From positions 1 through 48,922 of the forward strand of contig CAMJQJ010000007.1 of NCBI GenBank assembly GCA_946408025.1: 48,922 nucleotides of DNA. Reading direction: 5' to 3'. The position numbers were made by a program, and so were the translations under genes. Positions 1 to 15,950 of the stretch are shown piece after piece. The stretch is from an uncultured Faecalitalea sp. (GTDB lineage: Bacteria; Bacillota_I; Bacilli_A; Erysipelotrichales; Erysipelotrichaceae). The notes below the pieces were generated by a model. That model worked only from the letters and a program-made list of their open reading frames with translations, did no database searches and was not told where the DNA came from. Positions within the stretch are counted from its first letter, which is position 1. Every line of letters starts with the position of its first letter.

Positions 1-804
1 ACAACAATTGGCAGTGCTCATATGGAAAATCTCGGAGGAAAGAAACAAATTGCTCAAGCAAAGTTGGAAATCTTAGAGAATCTAAAACCAGGTGGTCTTT
101 TCTTATATGACAAAGAAAGTCCGGAAATTCAGGAATGCCTGCTAGAAATGGACGTTGATCCATCCAAACGTTTGATTTCCTTTGGCTTTAAAGGAGATAT
201 TTCCGTTACTTCATCTATTGATTATACAGAAAATGGAATTGAGTTTTATTGTTCAAGTCTAGCTGATAAAATCACGTTACATGCACTTGGAGATTTTCAG
301 GCAAAAAATGCTTTACCATGCATTTATGTAGCATTGGATCAGGGAATCTCGAATTCGTCAATTTTAAAAGGATTAAAAGATTTAGAAATGACGAAGATGC
401 GTACAGCACTTTTAAAGATTCATGATGCCAAGATCATAGATGATACATATAAATCCAATCCAGAAAGTGCTAAAGCGGCAATCGATACCTTGATGAAAGT
501 ACAGGCGAAAAAACATATAGCCGTGTTGGCAGATATGTTAGATTTAGGCCCAAAAGAAAACGATCTGCATGCAATGATTGGACACTATGCAGTTGAAAAA
601 AATGTGGATATAGTCTATGCGACTGGTCCTTTAAGTAAATATACGATCGAAGCATGTACAAACATAGATTCTAAATGGTTTGAAGCAAAGGATGAAATCG
701 TTGAGGAATTAAAACATTTACTGAATGAAGATTGTGCAATCTTGATCAAGGGAAGTCGTGCAATGAATATGGATGAAATTGTAGATAAATTGAAGGAGAT
801 GTAA
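1..804 (+). CDS. murF: UDP-N-acetylmuramoyl-tripeptide--D-alanyl-D-alanine ligase (MurF), C-terminal part, 5' truncated by the window
   Basis: Frame is open from position 1 (TTIGSAHMENLGGKKQIAQAK), typical of the Mur ligase central domain; DDTYKSNPESAKAAIDTL resembles the MurF C-terminal domain. Confidence 0.9.
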   Translation, partial: TTIGSAHMENLGGKKQIAQAKLEILENLKPGGLFLYDKESPEIQECLLEMDVDPSKRLISFGFKGDISVTSSIDYTENGIEFYCSSLADKITLHALGDFQAKNALPCIYVALDQGISNSSILKGLKDLEMTKMRTALLKIHDAKIIDDTYKSNPESAKAAIDTLMKVQAKKHIAVLADMLDLGPKENDLHAMIGHYAVEKNVDIVYATGPLSKYTIEACTNIDSKWFEAKDEIVEELKHLLNEDCAILIKGSRAMNMDEIVDKLKEM

Positions 805-809
805 ATTAT

Positions 810-1853
810 ATGTTGAAATTAGGTGTTGTCTTTGGTGGACAGAGTAGTGAATATTCTGTTTCTTTACACTCTGTTGCTTCTTTTTTAAGACAGATTCATA
901 ATGAAAAATACGATATTACGATGATTGGCATTGACCAGAATGGGCAATTTTATGTTTATGATGGTTCGATTGATGATATAGAGCATGATCATTGGATTCC
1001 TCAGGCTACAAAAGCTGCGTGGGTTCATAAAGGAATCATGGCTTTGGATGGAAAAAATACAGTAAAAGAATTAGATTGTGTATTCCCGGTTTTACATGGA
1101 AAGAATGGGGAAGATGGTTGTGTACAGGGTTTATTGGAATTGATGAATATCCATTATGTTGGATGTGATGTTATGTCTAGTGCAATTTCCATGGATAAAG
1201 AAATCATGCATATTTTATGTGATGAAGCAAATATACCTTGCGCTGATTATGTTTGTTTAAAAGCAAATGAAGATAATCCTACTTTCGAAATGATCCAGGA
1301 AAAAATTTCACTACCTTGGATCGTAAAACCATGTAATGCGGGAAGCAGTTATGGTGTTCATAAAGTAGAGAATAAAGAAGAATTTGAAGAAGCTTGTAAA
1401 GATGCTTTCTTCTATGATGGTCGTGGTAAGATCCTAGTTGAAAAAGTAATTGAAGGCTTTGAGATTGGCTGTGCTGTTATGGGAAATGAAGAAGTATTTA
1501 CAGGTAGCTGTGATGAGATTCAGATTTCTGGAGGAATCTTTGATTTTGAAGGAAAATACGAAATGAAAGGGGCTGAAATCATCTGCCCTGCACGAATCGA
1601 TGAAGAAACTTTTACCAAGGCCAAAGAACTAGCAGCTAAAACATATAAAGCTATGAATTGTTGTGGAATGGCTCGGGTAGATATGTTTGTAACGTCTCAA
1701 AAAGATGTAATTTTAAATGAATTGAATACTATTCCGGGTTTTACAGCTACTTCACGTTATCCATCAATGATGAAAGCAGCTGGAATTGAATTTAGTGATT
1801 TAATTGATAAATTGATCGATCTAGCAATGCAAAGGACGATTTCAGCATGTTAA
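810..1853 (+). CDS. D-Ala-D-Ala/D-Ser ligase, VanG/VanC-like
   Basis: ATP-grasp ligase motifs EKVIEGFEIGCAV, GGIFDFEGKY, LNELNTIPGFTATSRYPSMMKAAG; the SRYPSMM form matches Van-type ligases. Confidence 0.9.
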   Translation: MLKLGVVFGGQSSEYSVSLHSVASFLRQIHNEKYDITMIGIDQNGQFYVYDGSIDDIEHDHWIPQATKAAWVHKGIMALDGKNTVKELDCVFPVLHGKNGEDGCVQGLLELMNIHYVGCDVMSSAISMDKEIMHILCDEANIPCADYVCLKANEDNPTFEMIQEKISLPWIVKPCNAGSSYGVHKVENKEEFEEACKDAFFYDGRGKILVEKVIEGFEIGCAVMGNEEVFTGSCDEIQISGGIFDFEGKYEMKGAEIICPARIDEETFTKAKELAAKTYKAMNCCGMARVDMFVTSQKDVILNELNTIPGFTATSRYPSMMKAAGIEFSDLIDKLIDLAMQRTISAC

Positions 1854-2995
1854 AGAGTTATAGCCGAGCTTGGTGTGAAATTGATTATAAAGCAATCGAT
1901 CATAATTTGGATGAAATTCAAAAACTGGTGGGAAAAACTAAGATCATGGGAATCGTTAAGGCCAATGCCTATGGTCATGGAGATGTGGCTTGTGCAAAGC
2001 AAATGGCTAAGTGGGGTGTTGATTTCTTTGCCGTTTCCAGCGTTGATGAAGCTTTGAATCTAAGAGAAAATGGAATTGATCAAGATATCTTGATTTTAGG
2101 ATATACACCTGCTGAACATTTTCATTACTTATTCGAAAAAAACATCGTACAGTCACTGGTCTCTTTTGAGTATGCTCAAAAATTAAATGCATTTGCCAAA
2201 GAGAACGATGTGAAGATTCGTTGTCATTGCAAGGTGGATACAGGAATGTGTAGAACTGGTATTATATACCAGGATCAAGATAAGCATATGGATCAGATTG
2301 TTGCGGAATATCGCCTATCAAATTTGAATATTGAAGGAATCTTTTCGCATTTTCCTGTTAGTGATGATCTTGGAAAAGATAGTCGTACATTTACCGAGAA
2401 TCAGATTCGATTGTTTAGAGAAGTTATTGACAATCTAAAAAAGGAAGGCATTGATTGTGGTATCAAGCATATTCAGAACAGTTATGGAATTTTAAATTAT
2501 ATGGATCTTGGTATGGATTATTGTCGTCCAGGTTTGTTGTATATGGGCGTTACAAGTGATGATCATGTTCCTATTCTTTCAAAACCAAACTTTATTCCAA
2601 TCATGTCGATCTATGCCAATGTTTCTTTGGTGAAATGGATCCAAGAGGGACAAAGTGTTAGCTATGGGCGTAATTTTATCGCCACAAAGCCAACTAAGGT
2701 AGCTACTATATCGATTGGATATGCAGATGGGATCCCTCGTCTATTAAGTAATCAGGGATTTGAGGTATTGATTCATGGAAAACGTTGCAAAGTAGTTGGA
2801 AATATATGCATGGATCAATGTATGGTTGATGTAACAGATGTAGAAAATGTAAAAGAAGGAGATATTTGTTGTTTTGTTGGTCAAATGGGGAATGAAAGAG
2901 TTACGATTGATACGATTAGTCGTTTAGCCAAGACCATCAATAATGAAACGATGAGCGCTGTTGCTGCTCGTGTGCCACGTTTAGAGAAGAGGTAG
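1847..2995 (+). CDS. Alanine/serine racemase, PLP-dependent, resembling the VanT racemase domain
   Basis: VKANAYGHG PLP-lysine motif; GIFSHFPVSDDL, HIQNSYGILNY and TINNETMS match the VanT C-terminal domain; overlaps the ligase gene by 7 nt. Confidence 0.9.
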   Translation: MLKSYSRAWCEIDYKAIDHNLDEIQKLVGKTKIMGIVKANAYGHGDVACAKQMAKWGVDFFAVSSVDEALNLRENGIDQDILILGYTPAEHFHYLFEKNIVQSLVSFEYAQKLNAFAKENDVKIRCHCKVDTGMCRTGIIYQDQDKHMDQIVAEYRLSNLNIEGIFSHFPVSDDLGKDSRTFTENQIRLFREVIDNLKKEGIDCGIKHIQNSYGILNYMDLGMDYCRPGLLYMGVTSDDHVPILSKPNFIPIMSIYANVSLVKWIQEGQSVSYGRNFIATKPTKVATISIGYADGIPRLLSNQGFEVLIHGKRCKVVGNICMDQCMVDVTDVENVKEGDICCFVGQMGNERVTIDTISRLAKTINNETMSAVAARVPRLEKR

Positions 2996-2998
2996 ATT

Positions 2999-4015
2999 AT
3001 GAAAGTAAAGAGAAAATATGCCGCAATTGATATTGCTAAATATGTTTCGGCATTATTGGTTGTATGCATTCATACATATCCGTTTTATGAAATTAGTGAA
3101 ACGTTTAATACGTTTTTTATGCAAACGATATGTCGAATTGCTGTACCATTTTTCTTTACGACTTCTGGTTTCTTCTTTTTTCGTAAATATGGCGATGATC
3201 CTGAAGAAAACACGAATAATCTGCGCAAATATATAATGCGCTTATTAAAGATTTATTTGATTTGGACCGTGATCTATCTTCCATATACAATATGGGATCA
3301 GTATCAGGCAGGGTTTAGTATTCTTGGTGTTTTCTCTTATATTCGAGATTTCTTCTTAAATGGAAGTTATTATCATCTATGGTTCTTACCAGCCTTGATG
3401 TTAGCAAGCGTGATCGTCTTCTATTTATATAAAGAAAAAGGTTTGATGTTTACCTTAAAGGTAAGCTTAGGTGCTTATTTTCTAGGTTATTTGATCAATG
3501 TTTATACACCAGTCTGGGAAAGCATTCCAGGAATTAACTTCTTGTTTGCGTTTTTTACAAAAACTTTAGTGACAGCACGAGATGGAATCTTCTTTGGGCC
3601 AATCTTTGTGGCTTTAGGGCTTTTGTTGGCGAAAACAGGACGTTTACCATCTAGAACAAGCCTAGGAGGCTTTGTAATTAGTTTTTTATTAGTGGTTGTG
3701 GAAGTGTTGATCTATAATATGACAGGCATATTGCGAGATTTAACGAGCATGTATTTGTTTTTGGTACCAGCAGTCTATTTCCTTGTAAATTGGTTGTTAA
3801 CAATCAAAATGCCATATAAACCAATTTATAGAGTATTAAGAAATGATTCGTTATTGATTTATACATCACATATTTTATTCGCAAAAATTTTATTGATATT
3901 GATGCCAAATGCACATATCGTTATTTATTTTTTGACAATTGCCCTAGCGCAGGCTTTTGCAAGTCTTGTGATGCATTATAAGGAAAGATTTCCTGTATTA
4001 GAAAATTTATTGTAG
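2999..4015 (+). CDS. Acyltransferase-3 family membrane protein, resembling the VanT N-terminal domain
   Basis: AIDIAKYVSALLVVCIHTYPF, NGSYYHLWFLPALM, TARDGIFFGPIFVALG; multiple TM segments; starts 3 nt after the racemase stop codon. Confidence 0.85.
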   Translation: MKVKRKYAAIDIAKYVSALLVVCIHTYPFYEISETFNTFFMQTICRIAVPFFFTTSGFFFFRKYGDDPEENTNNLRKYIMRLLKIYLIWTVIYLPYTIWDQYQAGFSILGVFSYIRDFFLNGSYYHLWFLPALMLASVIVFYLYKEKGLMFTLKVSLGAYFLGYLINVYTPVWESIPGINFLFAFFTKTLVTARDGIFFGPIFVALGLLLAKTGRLPSRTSLGGFVISFLLVVVEVLIYNMTGILRDLTSMYLFLVPAVYFLVNWLLTIKMPYKPIYRVLRNDSLLIYTSHILFAKILLILMPNAHIVIYFLTIALAQAFASLVMHYKERFPVLENLL

Positions 4016-4018
4016 CTT

Positions 4019-5608
4019 ATGATTAGAGTATTTCAAGTTAAATGTGCATTTGAAAATGAGATTGAAGCACAGTTGATTAAAAAACTGCATATAAAAAAAG
4101 AAGATCTTTTGGGGTATACAATACACCGCAGAAGTGTGGATGCCCGCCATCAAAAGGTCTTATTTTCTTATGTCATAGACTGCTCATTAAAAAATGAGAA
4201 AAAAGTTTTAAAGAACAAAGATGTTCAACCTTGTCCGGATGAAACATATCATTTTGTTTCTAGTGGTAGTCGTATAATGAATACAAGACCTGTAGTCGTA
4301 GGATTTGGTCCAGCTGGCATGTTTGCATCATTAATCCTAGCTGAAGCAGGATATCAACCTATTGTAATTGAGCGTGGTAGTATGGTTTCTATTCGAAAAC
4401 AGAAGGTAGATACTTTTTGGCAAACGGGAAAGCTGGATCCAGAATGCAATGTTCAGTTTGGTGAAGGTGGTGCCGGAGCTTTCTCAGACGGCAAATTAAC
4501 GACGCGTTCTAAAGATTCAAGAGCACGAAAAGTTTTAGAAGAATTAGTTGGATTTGGCGCTAAAGAAGATATTTTGATCGATGCTCATCCACATATTGGA
4601 ACAGATGACTTTTTGAAGATCATTGAAAATTGTCGTAAAAAGATCATTGATCTCGGAGGAATGTTTTATTTTGATTCATGTTTAAAAGATATAAAAACAA
4701 AACAGAATAAATTGGTAGAAATTAAGATCAACCATACATGGATTCCATGTGAAAATATGATCTTAACAATTGGACATAGTGCAACTGACACGATACGAAT
4801 GTTACATCAAAATAGAGTCATGATGGAAAATAAACCATATGCGATTGGAGTTCGTATCGAACATAAACAAGAATACATAAACCGAGCAATGTTAAAAGAC
4901 TATGCTACGGATCCTAGATTGATTCCAGCAAGGTATCAGCTAACACATACAGCTTCCAATAATAAAGGTGTCTATACATTTTGTATGTGTCCAGGTGGGT
5001 ATGTCATTCCTTCCAGTAGTTCTAAAGAAAAACTTGTGGTCAATGGAATGAGCTATGCATCAAGAAGTGGAGAGAATGCTAATAGTGCTTTATTAGTACA
5101 GGTCAATGAAGAAGATTATGGAAGTGAACTTTTTGCCGGACTAAAGTATCAGGAAGACTTGGAAGAAAAAGCGTATCATATGGCCGGTGATTATAAAGTG
5201 TGTTTGCAATTGGCAAAAGATTATTTAGAGAATAAGGTTTCATCTGGTTTGGATGATGTAAAACCAACTTATGCCTTGGGATATCGATTCGTTAATTTAA
5301 ATGAATTATTTGATCCAGCAATCAATCAGGCGTTACATGAAGCCTTGATTGCCTTTGAAAAACGCGTGCCTGGGTTTGTAAGTGAAGGGGCTTTATTAAG
5401 TGCTGTTGAATCAAGAAGTAGTTCTAGTGTTCGAATTATTCGTGATCATGATCTTAAATCTAACATTCAAGGAATCTATCCTGGAGGTGAAGGAGCTGGA
5501 TATGCCGGTGGCATTATGACAAGTGCTATCGATGGAATAAAATGCGCAGAAAGTATTATTTGCCAATATCAAAAACATGATACAATGAAGCAGAAAATGG
5601 AGGGATGA
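4019..5608 (+). CDS. FAD-dependent dehydrogenase (COG2509-like)
   Basis: PVVVGFGPAGMFASLILAEAGYQPIVIERG FAD-binding motif; QFGEGGAGAFSDGKLTTR. Confidence 0.85.
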   Translation: MIRVFQVKCAFENEIEAQLIKKLHIKKEDLLGYTIHRRSVDARHQKVLFSYVIDCSLKNEKKVLKNKDVQPCPDETYHFVSSGSRIMNTRPVVVGFGPAGMFASLILAEAGYQPIVIERGSMVSIRKQKVDTFWQTGKLDPECNVQFGEGGAGAFSDGKLTTRSKDSRARKVLEELVGFGAKEDILIDAHPHIGTDDFLKIIENCRKKIIDLGGMFYFDSCLKDIKTKQNKLVEIKINHTWIPCENMILTIGHSATDTIRMLHQNRVMMENKPYAIGVRIEHKQEYINRAMLKDYATDPRLIPARYQLTHTASNNKGVYTFCMCPGGYVIPSSSSKEKLVVNGMSYASRSGENANSALLVQVNEEDYGSELFAGLKYQEDLEEKAYHMAGDYKVCLQLAKDYLENKVSSGLDDVKPTYALGYRFVNLNELFDPAINQALHEALIAFEKRVPGFVSEGALLSAVESRSSSSVRIIRDHDLKSNIQGIYPGGEGAGYAGGIMTSAIDGIKCAESIICQYQKHDTMKQKMEG

Positions 5609-5609
5609 G

Positions 5610-6134
5610 ATGGCTTTATTAAAACCGAAATACTATGTTTCCAGTTTTGAACATATGTCGATAGAGCGTTTAAAACAACAGGGAATCAAGCTATTATTAT
5701 GTGATATTGATAATACATTGGTTTCTTATGATGAAAAACATCCAAGTCCTTCTGTCGTTGCGTTCATTGATCGAGTGAAAAGTTCTGGAATCGAAGTTGC
5801 GCTTTGTTCTAATGCAACCAAAGAAAGGGCAACACGATTTTCTAAAGATCTAAATGTGTCTACAACTTATTACTTTTCTATGAAACCATTGCCGAAAAAT
5901 TTTATTCGAGCAATGAAAAAACATAATTTAAAAGCCAATCAGGTTGCCATTATCGGGGATCAGATGTTTACAGACATATTAGGTGGAAATCTTGCAGGAC
6001 TTTATACGATATTGACTGCGCCAATCGCAGTGAAAGATAGAGGCGTTACGAAAATCAATCGTTTCTTTGAAAATATTGTATATAAAGTATTAGAGCATAA
6101 AGGAGATTTTAAGAGAGGTGAATTCGATGACTAA
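5610..6134 (+). CDS. yqeG: YqeG family HAD-IIIA phosphatase
   Basis: LLCDIDNTLV, ALCSNATKERATRF, IGDQMFTDILGGN; next to yqeH. Confidence 0.9.
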   Translation: MALLKPKYYVSSFEHMSIERLKQQGIKLLLCDIDNTLVSYDEKHPSPSVVAFIDRVKSSGIEVALCSNATKERATRFSKDLNVSTTYYFSMKPLPKNFIRAMKKHNLKANQVAIIGDQMFTDILGGNLAGLYTILTAPIAVKDRGVTKINRFFENIVYKVLEHKGDFKRGEFDD

Positions 6135-7206
6135 ATATTGTAAAGGGTGTGGCGCAAAGCTGCAAAATGATGATAAAGATGCAATCGGATATGTTCCTAC
6201 ATTGGATGCATCGTATTGTGAAAGATGTTTTCGAATTCGTCATTATGGAGATGTTACAATTTCCATGGCACAGAAAATCGAATCCAATCAAACGCTAGAT
6301 AAGATTGCCAAAGTCAAGGGAGTGATCTTTTGGGTGGTCGATCTTTTTGCATTTGAATCAAACATGATTTCTCGCTTGAATCAAAAATTGGACACCGATG
6401 AAATTGTCCTTGTCTTAACTAAACGTGATGTTCTCCCTAAAACATTAAGTGATAAAAAAATTCTAGAATTTGTCAATCGCCGTTTAGATGAAGAAGGTAT
6501 CAAAGTAAAAGATATCGTGATTTGTGGATATCTTTTAAAACATAATGAACAGTCAAAGGCATGCATTGATGAAATCTATTCCAAGATACAAATGTATCGT
6601 AAAGGAAGAGATATTGTCTTTATGGGAGTTGCCAATGCAGGGAAATCAACAATCTTAAATCAATTGCTGGCTATGGAAGATCTAACGACATCTAGACATC
6701 CTGGTACAACATTGGACCTTGTGCCAATTGAACAAGATGGATATACGATTTATGATACCCCGGGGATTGAGAATCATCATAGTGTATTGACTTTTTTGAA
6801 TTCAAAAGATCTAAAAATGGTTATTCCAACCAAACCTATCAAGCCTTTTGTTTCTCAGATTTATGAAGATCAATCTTTTGCGGCAGCTGGGCTTGCAAGG
6901 TTGGATATCGTAGTAAAAGGAAAAGCCAGTGTAGTAGGATATTTCTCCCGTTCTTTATCAATTCATAGAGGAAAATTGGAAAATGCGGATAATCTTTGGA
7001 ACAAACATTTAAATGAAATGCTGGTTCCTTGCCTTGATACTTCTATGTTGACAATGCATACATTTCAGGCGCCAAAAGTAACAAATGAAAAATTGGATGT
7101 CGTGATTCATGGGCTTGGATGGTTTTGCATAAGTGGGCAGATTCAAGATGTTTATGTTCGTGTTCATAAAGGCATCAATGTTACATTCAGAAAGGCGATG
7201 ATCTAA
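6127..7206 (+). CDS. yqeH: Ribosome biogenesis GTPase YqeH
   Basis: Zn finger CKGCGAK..CERC, circularly permuted GTPase motifs (GVANAGKSTILNQL, DTPGIE); ATG 6127 preferred over the GTG at 6118. Confidence 0.9.
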   Translation: MTKYCKGCGAKLQNDDKDAIGYVPTLDASYCERCFRIRHYGDVTISMAQKIESNQTLDKIAKVKGVIFWVVDLFAFESNMISRLNQKLDTDEIVLVLTKRDVLPKTLSDKKILEFVNRRLDEEGIKVKDIVICGYLLKHNEQSKACIDEIYSKIQMYRKGRDIVFMGVANAGKSTILNQLLAMEDLTTSRHPGTTLDLVPIEQDGYTIYDTPGIENHHSVLTFLNSKDLKMVIPTKPIKPFVSQIYEDQSFAAAGLARLDIVVKGKASVVGYFSRSLSIHRGKLENADNLWNKHLNEMLVPCLDTSMLTMHTFQAPKVTNEKLDVVIHGLGWFCISGQIQDVYVRVHKGINVTFRKAMI

Positions 7207-10151: not shown

Positions 10152-10826
10152 ATGATTGGAATTTTAGCAGCTATGGATACAGAAGTAGAAGCTATCAAAA
10201 ATATCATGGAAATAAAGAAAGAAGAATTGTATCAGGGAATGAATTTCATTTACGGTACGATTGAAAACAAAGAAGTGGTGTTGTGCAAGTGCGGCGTAGG
10301 AAAATGTCTTGCGAGTATGAGTGCTACTTTGTTATGTACAAAAGAAAAGCTTTCCACATTAATTAACGTTGGTGTTGCCGGTGGTTTAAAGAAAGATCAA
10401 AAGGTATTAGATATTGTGATTTCAGATAAAATCGTCCAGGCTGACTATGATACCTCTCCTATTGATGGGGATGAAGGAATTGGATTGGTTTTTGAAGCGA
10501 ATGAAAAACTACAAAAGAAATGTATTGAAGCCGCTAAAAAGGCAGATATTCCCTATCATGTAGGAATGATTGCTTCGCAGGATATATTTATGGCAAGAAA
10601 AGAAGACTATGATAGATTAATGTCAAAATTTGCCGATTCGGCTTGTTCAGAGATGGAAGGTGGAGCAATAGGTCAGATTGCTCATGTATTTAATGTACCT
10701 GTGTTGGTCGTTCGTTCTTTAAGTGACGTCGTAGATCATCATGATAATCCAATGGAATTTACCACTTATGCTCAAATCGCATCGAAACAAGTCGCAACTT
10801 TGATCAAAGAAATGATGAGACTCTAA
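10152..10826 (+). CDS. mtnN: 5'-methylthioadenosine/S-adenosylhomocysteine nucleosidase
   Basis: GILAAMDTEVEAI, CGVGKCLASMSATLL, EMEGGAIGQIAHVFNVPVLVVRSLSD. Confidence 0.92.
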   Translation: MIGILAAMDTEVEAIKNIMEIKKEELYQGMNFIYGTIENKEVVLCKCGVGKCLASMSATLLCTKEKLSTLINVGVAGGLKKDQKVLDIVISDKIVQADYDTSPIDGDEGIGLVFEANEKLQKKCIEAAKKADIPYHVGMIASQDIFMARKEDYDRLMSKFADSACSEMEGGAIGQIAHVFNVPVLVVRSLSDVVDHHDNPMEFTTYAQIASKQVATLIKEMMRL

Positions 10827-10842
10827 GGGGTCTCTTTTTTTT
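10817..10842 (+). terminator. Intrinsic terminator after mtnN
   Basis: GAGACTCTAAGGGGTCTC followed by T8. Confidence 0.75.
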
Positions 10843-11017: not shown

Positions 11018-12277
11018 ATGTTATTAAAAAATATCTCTGAAGAGGAATTTAGTAATTTTTATGATGAATATGAACAAAAATGCTTTTGGCAATCGACATC
11101 AATGGCTCATTTTGAATCTTCACATGGATGGAATGTTCATTATTTAGGCTTATATGATGAGAATGTGATTCGTGCAGCTACGATATTGATTTCTAAGAAA
11201 GTGATGGGGAAGTATGCTCTTTTTGAGGCATTGCGAGGATTTTTGATTGACTATGATGATCTTGACCTTGTGGACGCATTTTTAACAGAATTAAAAATAT
11301 ATCTTCACGATCATAATTGTTTATATATGAAAACCGATCCATATTGTGAATACCAGCCTCATGATAAAGAAGGGAATGCCCTAGAAGGTCATAAAAGAGA
11401 TGATCTAATAAATTTGTTTGAAAAACATGGCTTTATTCATCAAGGCTTTCGTAATGGGTCTGACAATAATTATGAACCACGTTGGATGTCTATACTGTCA
11501 TTGGAAGGTAAAGATGAAGACGGTATTTTGAAAAATTGTGATTCAAAGACTCGACAAAATATTGTCAACACACAAAAAACCGGCCTAAAAATAGACCGTC
11601 TGAACAAATCGGAGTTAAATCGTTTACATGATATGGTCTCTACAACCGGAGAACGACGTCATTTCATGAATCCGAATCTTTCCTACTATACAGATTTTAT
11701 GACGAGTTTCCATGAAAATATGCAGGCATATTGTGTGTATTTGGATACACGTGATTACTATGAACGTTACAAAAAGAATTATGAAGAACTTTTAAAGGAA
11801 AAAGACCACATATACAAACTAATTGAAGAAACGGATTCCAAAAAGAATCGTTCAAAACTAAAAAATTGTGAGAATAAGATCACAGCGACTTTAAAGCGAA
11901 TTGATGAAGCTAAAAAACTTAGGGATGAATATGGCGATAAGATTGATCTAGCGGCAGCTATGTATGTCATCAATGATCGTGAAATCGTATATTTATTTAG
12001 TGGATCTAATGATAACTTTAAACATTTCAAAGCTGCGTATGCCTTGCAGTGGCACATGATTAAATACGGTATTGAGCATCATATCAAGCGTTATAATTTT
12101 TATGGTATTAGCGGCATATTTTCACCTGATGATGAAGAATATGGAGTATATCTTTTTAAAAAAGGTTTTGATGCAGACGTTATCGAGCTCATAGGAAATT
12201 TTGAATATATAGATCGAAAAAAGACATTTACTGTTTATGAAGAACTAAGAAAAATCAAACATCTTGTACGAAAATAA
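11018..12277 (+). CDS. FemAB/MurM-type peptidoglycan bridge aminoacyltransferase
   Basis: FWQSTSMAHFESSHGW, LYMKTDPYCEYQPHD, coiled-coil insertion, VYLFSGSNDNFKHFKAAYALQWHMIKYGI. Confidence 0.88.
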   Translation: MLLKNISEEEFSNFYDEYEQKCFWQSTSMAHFESSHGWNVHYLGLYDENVIRAATILISKKVMGKYALFEALRGFLIDYDDLDLVDAFLTELKIYLHDHNCLYMKTDPYCEYQPHDKEGNALEGHKRDDLINLFEKHGFIHQGFRNGSDNNYEPRWMSILSLEGKDEDGILKNCDSKTRQNIVNTQKTGLKIDRLNKSELNRLHDMVSTTGERRHFMNPNLSYYTDFMTSFHENMQAYCVYLDTRDYYERYKKNYEELLKEKDHIYKLIEETDSKKNRSKLKNCENKITATLKRIDEAKKLRDEYGDKIDLAAAMYVINDREIVYLFSGSNDNFKHFKAAYALQWHMIKYGIEHHIKRYNFYGISGIFSPDDEEYGVYLFKKGFDADVIELIGNFEYIDRKKTFTVYEELRKIKHLVRK

Positions 12278-13466
12278 CATCTTTTGATCCAGTAAGAGAT
12301 TTTTGGTAATCAAGTATGGTCTTGGATACTTCTTGCATCATGTCATACATTCGACTGACTTGATTCGAAAAGATAACAAGAATATAGTCTCTTCCAGGAA
12401 GATAAACAATTCCACCATCGTGATATAGTAGATCAGCAGCGCCTGTTTTATGGGCGAATTCAATACCTTTATCCAAGCCTGCTTGGATTTCATCACGATC
12501 TTCACATGCTTTTAAGATAGAAATCATGTCTTGGCAGGCTCTGTCTGATATGATTTCTTTTTTATATAATTTTTCAAAAAGAGTACCAATGTCTTTTGGA
12601 TTGGAAGTATTGCCTCCTCCATCGGTAAAGAAGTTCTCACCAGGAAGAAGTCCATGGTGAAGTTCTGTGTTTTCTAAGCCGAGTTCAATGCACATCTGAT
12701 TAACTTGATAAAGACCATAAACTCCATTGCCACCACCGAGCAAAGCAGCTAAATTATTGTATGCTGTATTGCTGCTGATGGTGATCATTTGTTCGATTTC
12801 AGTGGCATGAGCAGCATAATCTATATTTCCGTTCTCGATTTCTTGAAAGACTTTGATTAATGTAGGTACTTTGATCATGCAGCAAGGATACATATTTTTA
12901 GGATTAATATAAAAGGATTGGCTAGTGCGTAGATCTTTAAAATATACAGAGGTATCACCGTCATATTTTGACAGAACCTTTTGCACTTGCGCCTGGATTT
13001 CTTCAATATCAAAATCTACGTTTTGTTTGGTCTTTTTTCCATTTTTGTCGTAATAATCCAGATGCAGCTGTCCATCTTTTGAAAATGCTACATAAGTATC
13101 TTTTGCCATTTTTCCATTATTATCAAAATAGTATGTATGATTATTAATGGTTTGAAAGCTATATAGTTTATGGCCATTTTGACCATAATAATATGTGCTT
13201 TCTTTTTGTGTTACAAATCCCTTTTTCATAAATCCGGAATCCTCATCAAAATAATATGATTTACCATTGATTTCAAGATTTCCATGATGTAGGTGACCAT
13301 TTTGATCCACATAAACCATGATGGCATCTGAAAAGGGGAGAATTTGTACAAATCCTCTTTGGGTTGATAACCAGACACAAAACACAAGAATTAAGATTGA
13401 AAAGATTCCAACAGACAAATAGATTTTTCCAGTGAAATCCAAATGTAAAAACTTTTTTTGCTGCAT
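12255..13466 (-). CDS. Membrane-anchored class A beta-lactamase-fold hydrolase with cell-wall-binding repeats; Cys at the nucleophile position
   Basis: N-terminal TM; YYFDEDSGFMKKGFV / YYYGQNGHKLYSF / YYFDNNGKMAKDTY repeats; PCCMIK (SxxK position), SSN, KTG. Confidence 0.85.
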   Translation of the reverse strand: MQQKKFLHLDFTGKIYLSVGIFSILILVFCVWLSTQRGFVQILPFSDAIMVYVDQNGHLHHGNLEINGKSYYFDEDSGFMKKGFVTQKESTYYYGQNGHKLYSFQTINNHTYYFDNNGKMAKDTYVAFSKDGQLHLDYYDKNGKKTKQNVDFDIEEIQAQVQKVLSKYDGDTSVYFKDLRTSQSFYINPKNMYPCCMIKVPTLIKVFQEIENGNIDYAAHATEIEQMITISSNTAYNNLAALLGGGNGVYGLYQVNQMCIELGLENTELHHGLLPGENFFTDGGGNTSNPKDIGTLFEKLYKKEIISDRACQDMISILKACEDRDEIQAGLDKGIEFAHKTGAADLLYHDGGIVYLPGRDYILVIFSNQVSRMYDMMQEVSKTILDYQKSLTGSKDVIFVQDV

Positions 13467-13556
13467 GAAAATGACCTCTTTTATTATATGTTATTATAAT
13501 ATTTAATTATTGTATCTAAAATCGAGATAAGTGGTCTTGTTTTGTACTTAACAGGT

Positions 13557-14705
13557 TTAATAGTCACCACCCTCTACATGTAGGTATTCTTCAAGAGTTA
13601 GTCCAGATTGATAAATATTTATAGCTTCACTTCCAATATATCGCACATGCCAAGGTTCTGCCATATAGCCGGTGATGCTTTCTTTACCACTTTGATAACG
13701 AACGATAAAACCATATTTATGAGCATTTTGAGCTACCCATTGAGCTTCATTAGGGCTTTCCAACAGAGCACCATTTGGTTGTATCAAATCAAAAGCCAAC
13801 CCGGTTTGATGTTCAGAATATCCAGGTCTTGCCGAGAATGTGTCGGCGCTTGCCTGACCATATGAGTTAACATAATTTTGATAAAGATTACTTTGATATT
13901 GATAACTACGATATCCGCTGTAGGAATTGCTAATTGAAAGTCCAAGACTTTGCATATCGGCAATCATTTTTTGTAGTTGAGATAAGGCCGTTGAATCTTC
14001 TTGAGAACCATAGTTTGCCGGTAATGGATGCTTCTTGTTAACAACGAGTATACCATTTACATAGTATGGTTCAATGGTGATTTGAGGTGTTGAAGGATTA
14101 TTTTGACTTTGTGTGGTTGAATTATTTTGATTAGAAGAAGTATCATTTTGATTTTCTTCATTTTGAATGACAATATTGAATTCTTTTGAAGTAGAATTAT
14201 TGTATTTATCTGTAGCTTTGATTTTGCCAATATATGTTCCAGGGGTGCTAAAATCAACATTTTGGGTATCAAAGCTTATAGAACATTCACTTAGATCTTC
14301 TACAATGAAATACTTAGAAAAATCATAATTGTTACCATTGAGAGCTATATCTATAGAATCTGAGGAAGTAGTGATTTTTGGCTTTGTTGTATCTTTTACT
14401 TTGATCGTTAGTGTTTTTGAGTGATCAATCAAAGCATGGTAAGTTAGCATAATTTTGTAAGTTCCAACAGCCGGATAATTTTTATCGGTTTCATTTTTGA
14501 TTTTAGATGTATCTAATTGAATATTTGTTGGTTCAATGAAAGATGAATTAAACAATTCTTTTGTATTAAGATTTATGGACTTTCCATATTCCATTGTATA
14601 AGATGTTTGTTTTAAGGAAGGCAAGGAAAAATAAATTGCCAAAGCAATGAGGATTATACAAATAGCTGTGCCTATACCAATATAAATTTTAGTATTTTTC
14701 TTCAT
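13557..14705 (-). CDS. VanY-family D,D-carboxypeptidase with N-terminal Ig-like domains
   Basis: SYSGYRSYQYQ, GYSEHQTGLAFDL, EPWHVRYIG; N-terminal TM and two Ig-like segments. Confidence 0.9.
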   Translation of the reverse strand: MKKNTKIYIGIGTAICIILIALAIYFSLPSLKQTSYTMEYGKSINLNTKELFNSSFIEPTNIQLDTSKIKNETDKNYPAVGTYKIMLTYHALIDHSKTLTIKVKDTTKPKITTSSDSIDIALNGNNYDFSKYFIVEDLSECSISFDTQNVDFSTPGTYIGKIKATDKYNNSTSKEFNIVIQNEENQNDTSSNQNNSTTQSQNNPSTPQITIEPYYVNGILVVNKKHPLPANYGSQEDSTALSQLQKMIADMQSLGLSISNSYSGYRSYQYQSNLYQNYVNSYGQASADTFSARPGYSEHQTGLAFDLIQPNGALLESPNEAQWVAQNAHKYGFIVRYQSGKESITGYMAEPWHVRYIGSEAINIYQSGLTLEEYLHVEGGDY

Positions 14706-14714
14706 AGTATCCCT

Positions 14715-15950
14715 CTATTCTAAAGTGAATAAGTTTATTTCGTATGTATAGAATAAATTTGACATTTCTTTAAAAAAATCTGTTTTATTTGAAATTTGAT
14801 CTGTAAATAATACAAGAATATAATCTTTATCAGGAATGTACACGATACCACCATCTAGATATAGATCATAAGCCCATCCGGATTTATGAGCGAACTGTAT
14901 TGCATCAGGTAAACCTTGTCGAATCGCTCTTCGGTCAGCGCATTGTTTTAATAAATCTAACATCTGATCACATGCATCTTGCGAAATGATTTCGCCTTGA
15001 TACAATAAGTCAAATAATAAACCTATATCGCTAGGACAGCTGATGTTTGAACCGCTATCACTAAAATAGATATCACCGGGAGATAAACTATGATGCAGTT
15101 GTGTGTTCTGTAATCCTAGTTGCATCATATATGTATTTACAATTTGTAATCCTTTGATTCCATCTCCATTTCCTAACATGGTTATTAGGGCATTGTAAGA
15201 AGTATTATCACTGTGTATGATCATATTTTCTAAATAAGTTTGACAGGAATCATACTCTAATAAACCTTGATCTATATAGTTATATACAGTAACTAAAACG
15301 CAAACCTTGATGATCGAACATGGATAGAATGTATTATCATTGATGGAAATCTCTTGTTGTGTTCTTAAATCTTTAAAATATAAGCCGACATTCCCTTCGT
15401 ATTTATTAATGATAGTTTGAGCTTGCATTAAGAGCGTATCTTCGTCAATTAATAATTCACCGTATTCATTAAATATTTTTCCTTTGTATTGATTTGTTAC
15501 CATTTTTCCATCCTCATCAAAATATGATATCTGGTTCTTTTCATTTATTGAAATTTTCTTAAATTGATTCTTAACTTGTTTTCCATCTTCATAAAAATAG
15601 TAATAGTCATCTTCAATTCTATAGAATCCTTTTACCATGGTGCCATCTTTTTTGAAATAATAGGTATTGTCATCTATATCAGCAAAGCCAGTCTGCATGA
15701 CTCCAGTTTCTTCATCGAAATAGTAAGTTTGGCTTTCTATAGTATGGAATCCATAAAGAAAATTACCTTCTTTTGTCCTATAAACAATCTGGTCTTGTTT
15801 AAATATGTTTTTTGGCATAAAGCCAGATCGAGAAGAGGCAAACATAAAAGACAAAAGAAAAATGCCTATACATACAGAACATAATATGATTAAAACCTTT
15901 CTTTTCTTCTTTTTGCGCTCTTCACTCATAATGTTATTACTCTTATTCAT
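14715..15950 (-). CDS. Membrane-anchored class A beta-lactamase-fold serine hydrolase with cell-wall-binding repeats (paralog of 12255..13466)
   Basis: TM; YYFDEETGVMQTGFADIDDNTYYFKKDGTMVKGF repeats; PCSIIK (SxxK), SDN, KSG. Confidence 0.87.
   Translation of the reverse strand: MNKSNNIMSEERKKKKRKVLIILCSVCIGIFLLSFMFASSRSGFMPKNIFKQDQIVYRTKEGNFLYGFHTIESQTYYFDEETGVMQTGFADIDDNTYYFKKDGTMVKGFYRIEDDYYYFYEDGKQVKNQFKKISINEKNQISYFDEDGKMVTNQYKGKIFNEYGELLIDEDTLLMQAQTIINKYEGNVGLYFKDLRTQQEISINDNTFYPCSIIKVCVLVTVYNYIDQGLLEYDSCQTYLENMIIHSDNTSYNALITMLGNGDGIKGLQIVNTYMMQLGLQNTQLHHSLSPGDIYFSDSGSNISCPSDIGLLFDLLYQGEIISQDACDQMLDLLKQCADRRAIRQGLPDAIQFAHKSGWAYDLYLDGGIVYIPDKDYILVLFTDQISNKTDFFKEMSNLFYTYEINLFTLE

Follow-up and report, generated by a model that had tools for sequence, protein, structure and literature searches.

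A VanG-like ligase and a split, reverse-order VanT in the murF operon of a Faecalitalea genome: a probable housekeeping D-Ala-D-Ser operon of Erysipelotrichaceae

D-Ala-D-Ser synthesis is familiar as a means of resistance that operates alongside a normal Ddl, and the question raised by the present locus is whether a VanG-like ligase lying directly behind murF is such an add-on or the means by which the cell ordinarily completes its wall peptide. The window, that is, the whole 48,922-nt stretch of DNA that was analysed, is one contig of a 1.53 Mb MAG (79% complete) near Faecalitalea cylindroides, and its ligase is 97% identical to that of F. cylindroides. A preliminary description had proposed that murF, the VanG-like ligase, a stand-alone racemase and an acyltransferase-3 (AT3) membrane protein form a candidate intrinsic D-Ala-D-Ser operon conferring glycopeptide tolerance. 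Our analysis bears out the operon, and its D-Ala-D-Ser chemistry is very likely, but the frame is amended: the locus is better understood as a housekeeping wall operon belonging to the lineage than as a resistance add-on, and D-Ala-D-Ser looks like the only way in which this cell finishes its wall peptide.

The four genes lie where they had been placed, in a tightly packed run. The ligase starts at 810, with 5 nt between it and the end of murF at 804, and overlaps the racemase by 7 nt; the AT3 gene starts at 2999, 3 nt past the racemase end, and from murF to 4015 all genes overlap or are spaced by 3-5 nt. Past 4015, the run continues with a gene for an FAD-dependent protein, yqeG, yqeH, nadD-yqeK and others, up to a terminator-like hairpin (Table 1). 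A full-length murF is present in F. cylindroides (locus L005, 4634-5995) and there, as in Holdemanella and Catenisphaera, it opens the run, with a divergent gene upstream of it. The gene order is identical in 17 of the 17 related loci (L005-L021), an arrangement far beyond chance. An operon with the same order recurs through Erysipelotrichaceae, and in many genera the block sits between murF and the FAD/yqeG/yqeH genes.

Table 1. Features of the window discussed in the text
Feature	Position (nt)	Strand	Basis
murF, 3' part; 5' end cut by contig/window start	1-804	+	NCBIfam TIGR01143, Mur_ligase_M, Mur_ligase_C
Predicted Van-type D-Ala--D-Ser ligase, VanG-like	810-1853	+	NCBIfam VanG, PDB 4fu0, trees, residues
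VanT-like Ser/Ala racemase, free-standing	1847-2995	+	NCBIfam vanT-G-Cterm, PDB 4ecl, tree, residues
Free-standing VanT-membrane-type AT3 protein	2999-4015	+	Pfam PF01757, NCBIfam vanT-CELN and vanT-L-mem, motif alignment
Conserved FAD-dependent protein; next operon gene in most relatives	4019-5608	+	PF21688, synteny
yqeG and yqeH (ribosome-assembly GTPase), operon continues	5610-7206	+	NCBIfam TIGR01668, TIGR03597
Intrinsic-terminator-like hairpin followed by 8 T; best + strand candidate 3' of murF	10817-10834	+	pattern match only
VanY-fold protein, best as LdcB L,D-carboxypeptidase	13557-14705	-	model scores

In NCBIfam profile searches, the best curated model for the ligase was VanG (408 bits against a cut-off of 495), and the D_ala_D_ser model scored 354 bits (cut-off 520), whereas the cut-off for a plain "D-alanine--D-alanine ligase" was cleared. 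The best solved structure is PDB 4fu0, which we take to be E. faecalis VanG. In a tree of 58 proteins, the ligase falls in one clade with VanC1, VanN and VanG that includes the D-Lac ligases VanA and VanB too (46 rows, support 100/99). Outside this clade lie Salmonella DdlA, the Y/M ligases of a sister family and, from the same family as the ligase itself, the Ddl of 390-410 aa. A larger tree (121 rows) agrees, with a Van clade of 71 rows (SH-aLRT 100). The VanC and VanN references were drawn from plasmid records because a VanC model search of 397 genomes yielded nothing above the cut-off.

At the specificity positions, the ligase carries F244, G248 and R316 together with a K249-Y250 loop. Among the references, VanG, VanC1 and VanN show F/E/R with the KY loop, VanG-like references likewise have F, E and R, the combination of F and R without a KY loop is seen in VanA and VanB, and the Ddl signatures are Y/x/M, L/D/L or Y/N/L. 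Thus, Phe and Arg occupy what are presumably the VanG F252 and R324 positions, next to a KY-bearing loop; in VanC2 and VanG, Phe and Arg at these positions reportedly favour D-Ser. Arg316 by itself was dropped as a mark of D-Ser specificity, given that VanA and VanB carry Arg too. Both F244 and R316 are fixed throughout the sub-clade of the ligase. The Glu of the EKY motif of VanG, VanC and VanN is absent, with a Ddl-like Gly248 in its place, and this position is Gly or Ala in nearly the whole sub-clade, so that a D-Ala-D-Ala side activity may be larger. Taken as a set, the residues are of the D-Ser type, and the ligase is predicted to prefer D-Ser at subsite 2.

The racemase matched best the model of the VanT-G catalytic subunit (vanT-G-Cterm; 425 bits, cut-off 460), scored 249 bits against the VanT-L catalytic subunit and cleared the cut-off for a plain "alanine racemase". 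With the Van cut-offs missed and the plain ones passed, automatic annotation would hide both enzymes, naming them simply ddl and alr. The best solved structure is a serine racemase, PDB 4ecl, which we take to be VanT-G. In the racemase tree, 44 VanT-like rows are split from 24 Alr rows (100/99), and the racemase groups with VanT-G, VanT-C and VanT-N; the comparison with Van and housekeeping enzymes that the preliminary description had called for accordingly places both the ligase and the racemase on the Van side. The position of Alr Tyr354 is occupied by Asn (N366), as in VanT, with Tyr kept in 18 of the 20 free-standing Alr of the family; K38 is the PLP lysine, and Q210-NSYG is as in VanT. 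VanT-G reportedly accepts Ala in addition to Ser, so that one enzyme could supply both.

The racemase has no N-terminal AT3 fusion: the two parts of VanT are encoded by separate genes, the racemase first, as had been proposed and as is the case in all 17 loci. The VanT-like character seen earlier in the membrane protein is likewise supported, as its best curated models are the membrane half of VanT-CELN (132 bits) and the VanT-L membrane subunit (98 bits), both scores being below the NCBI cut-offs (900 and 675, respectively). It retains K14-X10-H25, presumably the AT3 acyl-transfer motif, and (R/K)-X10-H is found also in VanT-C, VanT-N and one VanG-type VanT. By profile and motif, then, the AT3 protein is a putative detached membrane half of VanT. 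Most likely, it acts at the membrane in the service of the D-Ser pathway, either by L-Ser supply, as proposed for VanT, or, because the K-X10-H motif is intact, by acyl transfer. The role of the AT3 part of VanT is unexplained, and resistance mutations fall in it (2025; PMC12423673); a free-standing protein of this type allows that role to be studied apart from the racemase. In locus L122, of a possible Clostridium innocuum relative (G131), the motif His is replaced by Tyr, and no AT3 gene was seen beside the racemase in Erysipelothrix and some other genera, suggesting that AT3 is not strictly required. Elsewhere, in L081 and L101, a VanG-like ligase is followed by a fused AT3-racemase of 716-721 aa with its parts in VanT order, and the racemases of L087, L129 and L130 have an N-terminal extension of ~250 aa.

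Among known van systems, the vanG operon of E. faecalis and Clostridioides difficile (VanG, VanXY-G, VanT-G) provides the closest ligase (4fu0) and racemase (4ecl) and shares the F/KY/R ligase signature and the racemase Asn. Unlike vanG, the present locus has a split VanT with the racemase first, lacks VanXY and VanURS, lies inside the murF operon, encodes the only ligase and has Gly for the Glu before KY. In vanL of E. faecalis (VanL, VanXY-L), the VanT halves are separate genes as well, and NCBIfam holds distinct VanT-L membrane and catalytic subunits, so that a split VanT has a precedent, which amends the preliminary description. In vanL, the membrane gene comes ahead of the racemase, and the cluster includes vanXY and vanRS; here, in contrast, the racemase comes first, vanXY and vanRS are absent, and the match is weaker (98 bits for the membrane and 249 bits for the catalytic subunit). 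The intrinsic vanC type of E. gallinarum resembles the operon, of which the same D-Ala-D-Ser chemistry is predicted, also in its F/KY/R signature and VanT Asn but differs in having VanXY-C, a fused VanT, VanRS and a separate Ddl gene nearby. The intrinsic resistance of C. innocuum, from the same broad lineage, is similar in that, according to PMC8888209, it involves serine-ending precursors and two chromosomal genes. The split of VanT is thus not new, in contrast to the inverted gene order and to the use of these two enzymes as the only ligase and racemase for the wall.

The preliminary description had seen neither VanXY nor VanRS in the window. In the operon, beside the ligase, there is indeed no vanXY, vanX/vanY or vanRS, and no vanRS was found upstream of the operon in relatives; the window does, however, encode one VanY-fold protein (Table 1). 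Its identification as VanXY was rejected, given that it scored 92 of 250 bits with the vanXY model, far under the cut-off, and matched LdcB best; the genome has four VanY-fold genes. Two choline-binding-repeat proteins with Beta-lactamase2 domains flank this LdcB-like protein (12255-15950, minus strand), and a FemAB gene lies at 11018-12277 on the plus strand.

The MAG yielded one ddl match and one alr match, and no second ddl or alr was found in its 79% complete sequence. A second ddl could be missed in such a genome, but the relatives argue against this: in the sub-clade (12 genera and 26 readable genomes of a family sample of 148), there is one ligase match in each of the 26 genomes and one alr in 25, the type having been checked by sequence for each genus in one genome or two. 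Elsewhere in the family, genera possess a Van-type ligase together with a 390-410 aa Ddl, or such a Ddl alone. Apparent wall-gene loss in three genomes of high completeness (G016, locus L226; G017; G058) was set aside: the stretch read in G016 is all N, which reflects withheld sequence and not loss of the wall, and G017 and G058 have no candidates for the murF, ddl or alr families either. The conserved order across Erysipelotrichaceae and the single ligase and racemase in the sub-clade identify the operon as core housekeeping, not an acquired resistance cluster.

In our assessment, the operon probably serves the ordinary synthesis of wall peptide in this Erysipelotrichaceae lineage and is of the D-Ala-D-Ser kind, a variant of a known system. 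As we infer for substrate use, precursor composition and resistance, the VanT-like racemase would produce D-Ser as well as the D-Ala of position 4, the two would be joined by the VanG-like ligase, and MurF of the same operon would add the dipeptide to UDP-MurNAc-tripeptide. Lipid II would then be mainly D-Ser-ended and bind vancomycin poorly without induction, and VanXY would be dispensable, there being no second Ddl to make D-Ala-D-Ala.

The trees and residues rejected a plain Ddl as the main reading, and we consider it unlikely, although worth retaining as a rival, that the ligase is Van-type by descent and works as the D-Ala-D-Ala ligase of the cell, with the racemase simply an Alr and D-Ser a minor product. 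As no other ligase or racemase was found, these enzymes must serve the essential step, Gly248 is Ddl-like, VanT-type racemases reportedly act on Ala too, and reversion can happen, as two Van-clade genera carry Y/L. Nevertheless, F244 and R316 are fixed in the sub-clade, the Y/L lineages show what loss of this signature looks like, the VanT Asn is retained in the racemase, and the operon still contains the VanT membrane partner. The preliminary description had named, as the contrary outcome, a ligase that is the only ddl of its genome, clusters with housekeeping Ddl and makes only D-Ala-D-Ala; the sole-copy part is found here, whereas the clustering is not seen.

A mixed wall, with D-Ala-D-Ala and D-Ala-D-Ser in comparable amounts depending on D-Ser supply and with tolerance instead of resistance, appears quite improbable. 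In its favour, additional synthesis of D-Ala-D-Ala by a VanC2 enzyme was seen in vitro at pH 8 (PMC12004154), and one racemase has to feed both amino acids; against it, C. innocuum is reported to have serine-ending precursors (PMC8888209). VanG-like enzymes, and the vanG-like loci with fused VanT in some relatives (L081, L101), might suggest a recently acquired, possibly mobile vanG-type cluster. We give this hardly any credence and reject it on synteny, given the same murF-FAD/yqeG/yqeH position in many genera, the family sub-clade in the enzyme trees, and the lack of vanRS and vanXY.

If the wall is constitutively of the D-Ala-D-Ser kind, several common gut genera should by nature be insensitive to vancomycin when it is given orally. 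This reading also allows the cause of resistance to be tested directly in the pathogen Erysipelothrix rhusiopathiae, an isolate of which had a vancomycin MIC of 32 mg/L, with the cause left open and D-Ala-D-Ala assumed (2022 genome paper, PMC9637936). One genome of our sample (G132, genus code g44) was identified as E. rhusiopathiae-like: the sites of the species primers ER1 and ER2 lie 938 bp apart in it, against a published product of 937 (PMC6616368), and an Erysipelothrix 16S primer matches with one mismatch. Its single ligase (F/E/R) follows murF and adjoins a VanT-like racemase that carries Asn, and another alr is encoded elsewhere. With the generic Ddl and the VanG models, this ligase reaches almost the same score (315 and 309 bits, respectively). 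A D-Ala-D-Ser wall could explain the resistance, as a prediction and not as proof. More tentatively, with the odds slightly against it, much of Erysipelotrichaceae including Erysipelothrix may have given up D-Ala-D-Ala for a constitutive D-Ala-D-Ser wall built by one Van-type ligase and one VanT-type racemase. This would account for the resistance of E. rhusiopathiae, and the lineage could then plausibly be the ancestral reservoir from which the vanG/vanC enzymes came.

Reported phenotypes of other members of the family are varied, and our literature search found no published MIC for Faecalitalea or Holdemanella. For C. innocuum, PMC8888209, citing David 2004, credits two chromosomal genes with serine-ending precursors and gives an MIC of 4-16 mg/L; the 4.3 Mb genome G131, which may be C. 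innocuum, has murF-ligase-racemase-AT3-FAD with F/R and Asn, its AT3 lacking the motif His. Ileibacterium, which belongs to the sub-clade of the ligase, was dominant among the replicating cells at 0.1 mg/mL vancomycin, for which the authors had no explanation and named timing as a confounder (PMC9980609). Merdibacter massiliensis, of an Erysipelotrichaceae genus, is vancomycin susceptible and teicoplanin resistant (PMC6538751), which is no simple fit if Merdibacter carries this operon. Bulleidia is vancomycin-sensitive (PMC12786226) and may be among the family members with only the ~390-410 aa Ddl.

Across 51 loci with both ligase and racemase, F/R ligases are paired with a racemase Asn in 42 (one of which also holds a second racemase), and seven combine an F/R ligase with another racemase residue, mostly outside the sub-clade; both Y/L ligases adjoin racemases with D or S. 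The pairing is a trend, not a rule. These two ligases (L073 and L076, genera g25 and g28) are Van-clade members with Y and L that keep EKY, a possible reversion to D-Ala-D-Ala as sole ligase. In Ileibacterium (L020, L079), L126, L059 and L060, MurF and the Van-type ligase form one open frame of ~785-814 aa, a fusion that apparently arose in more than one lineage.
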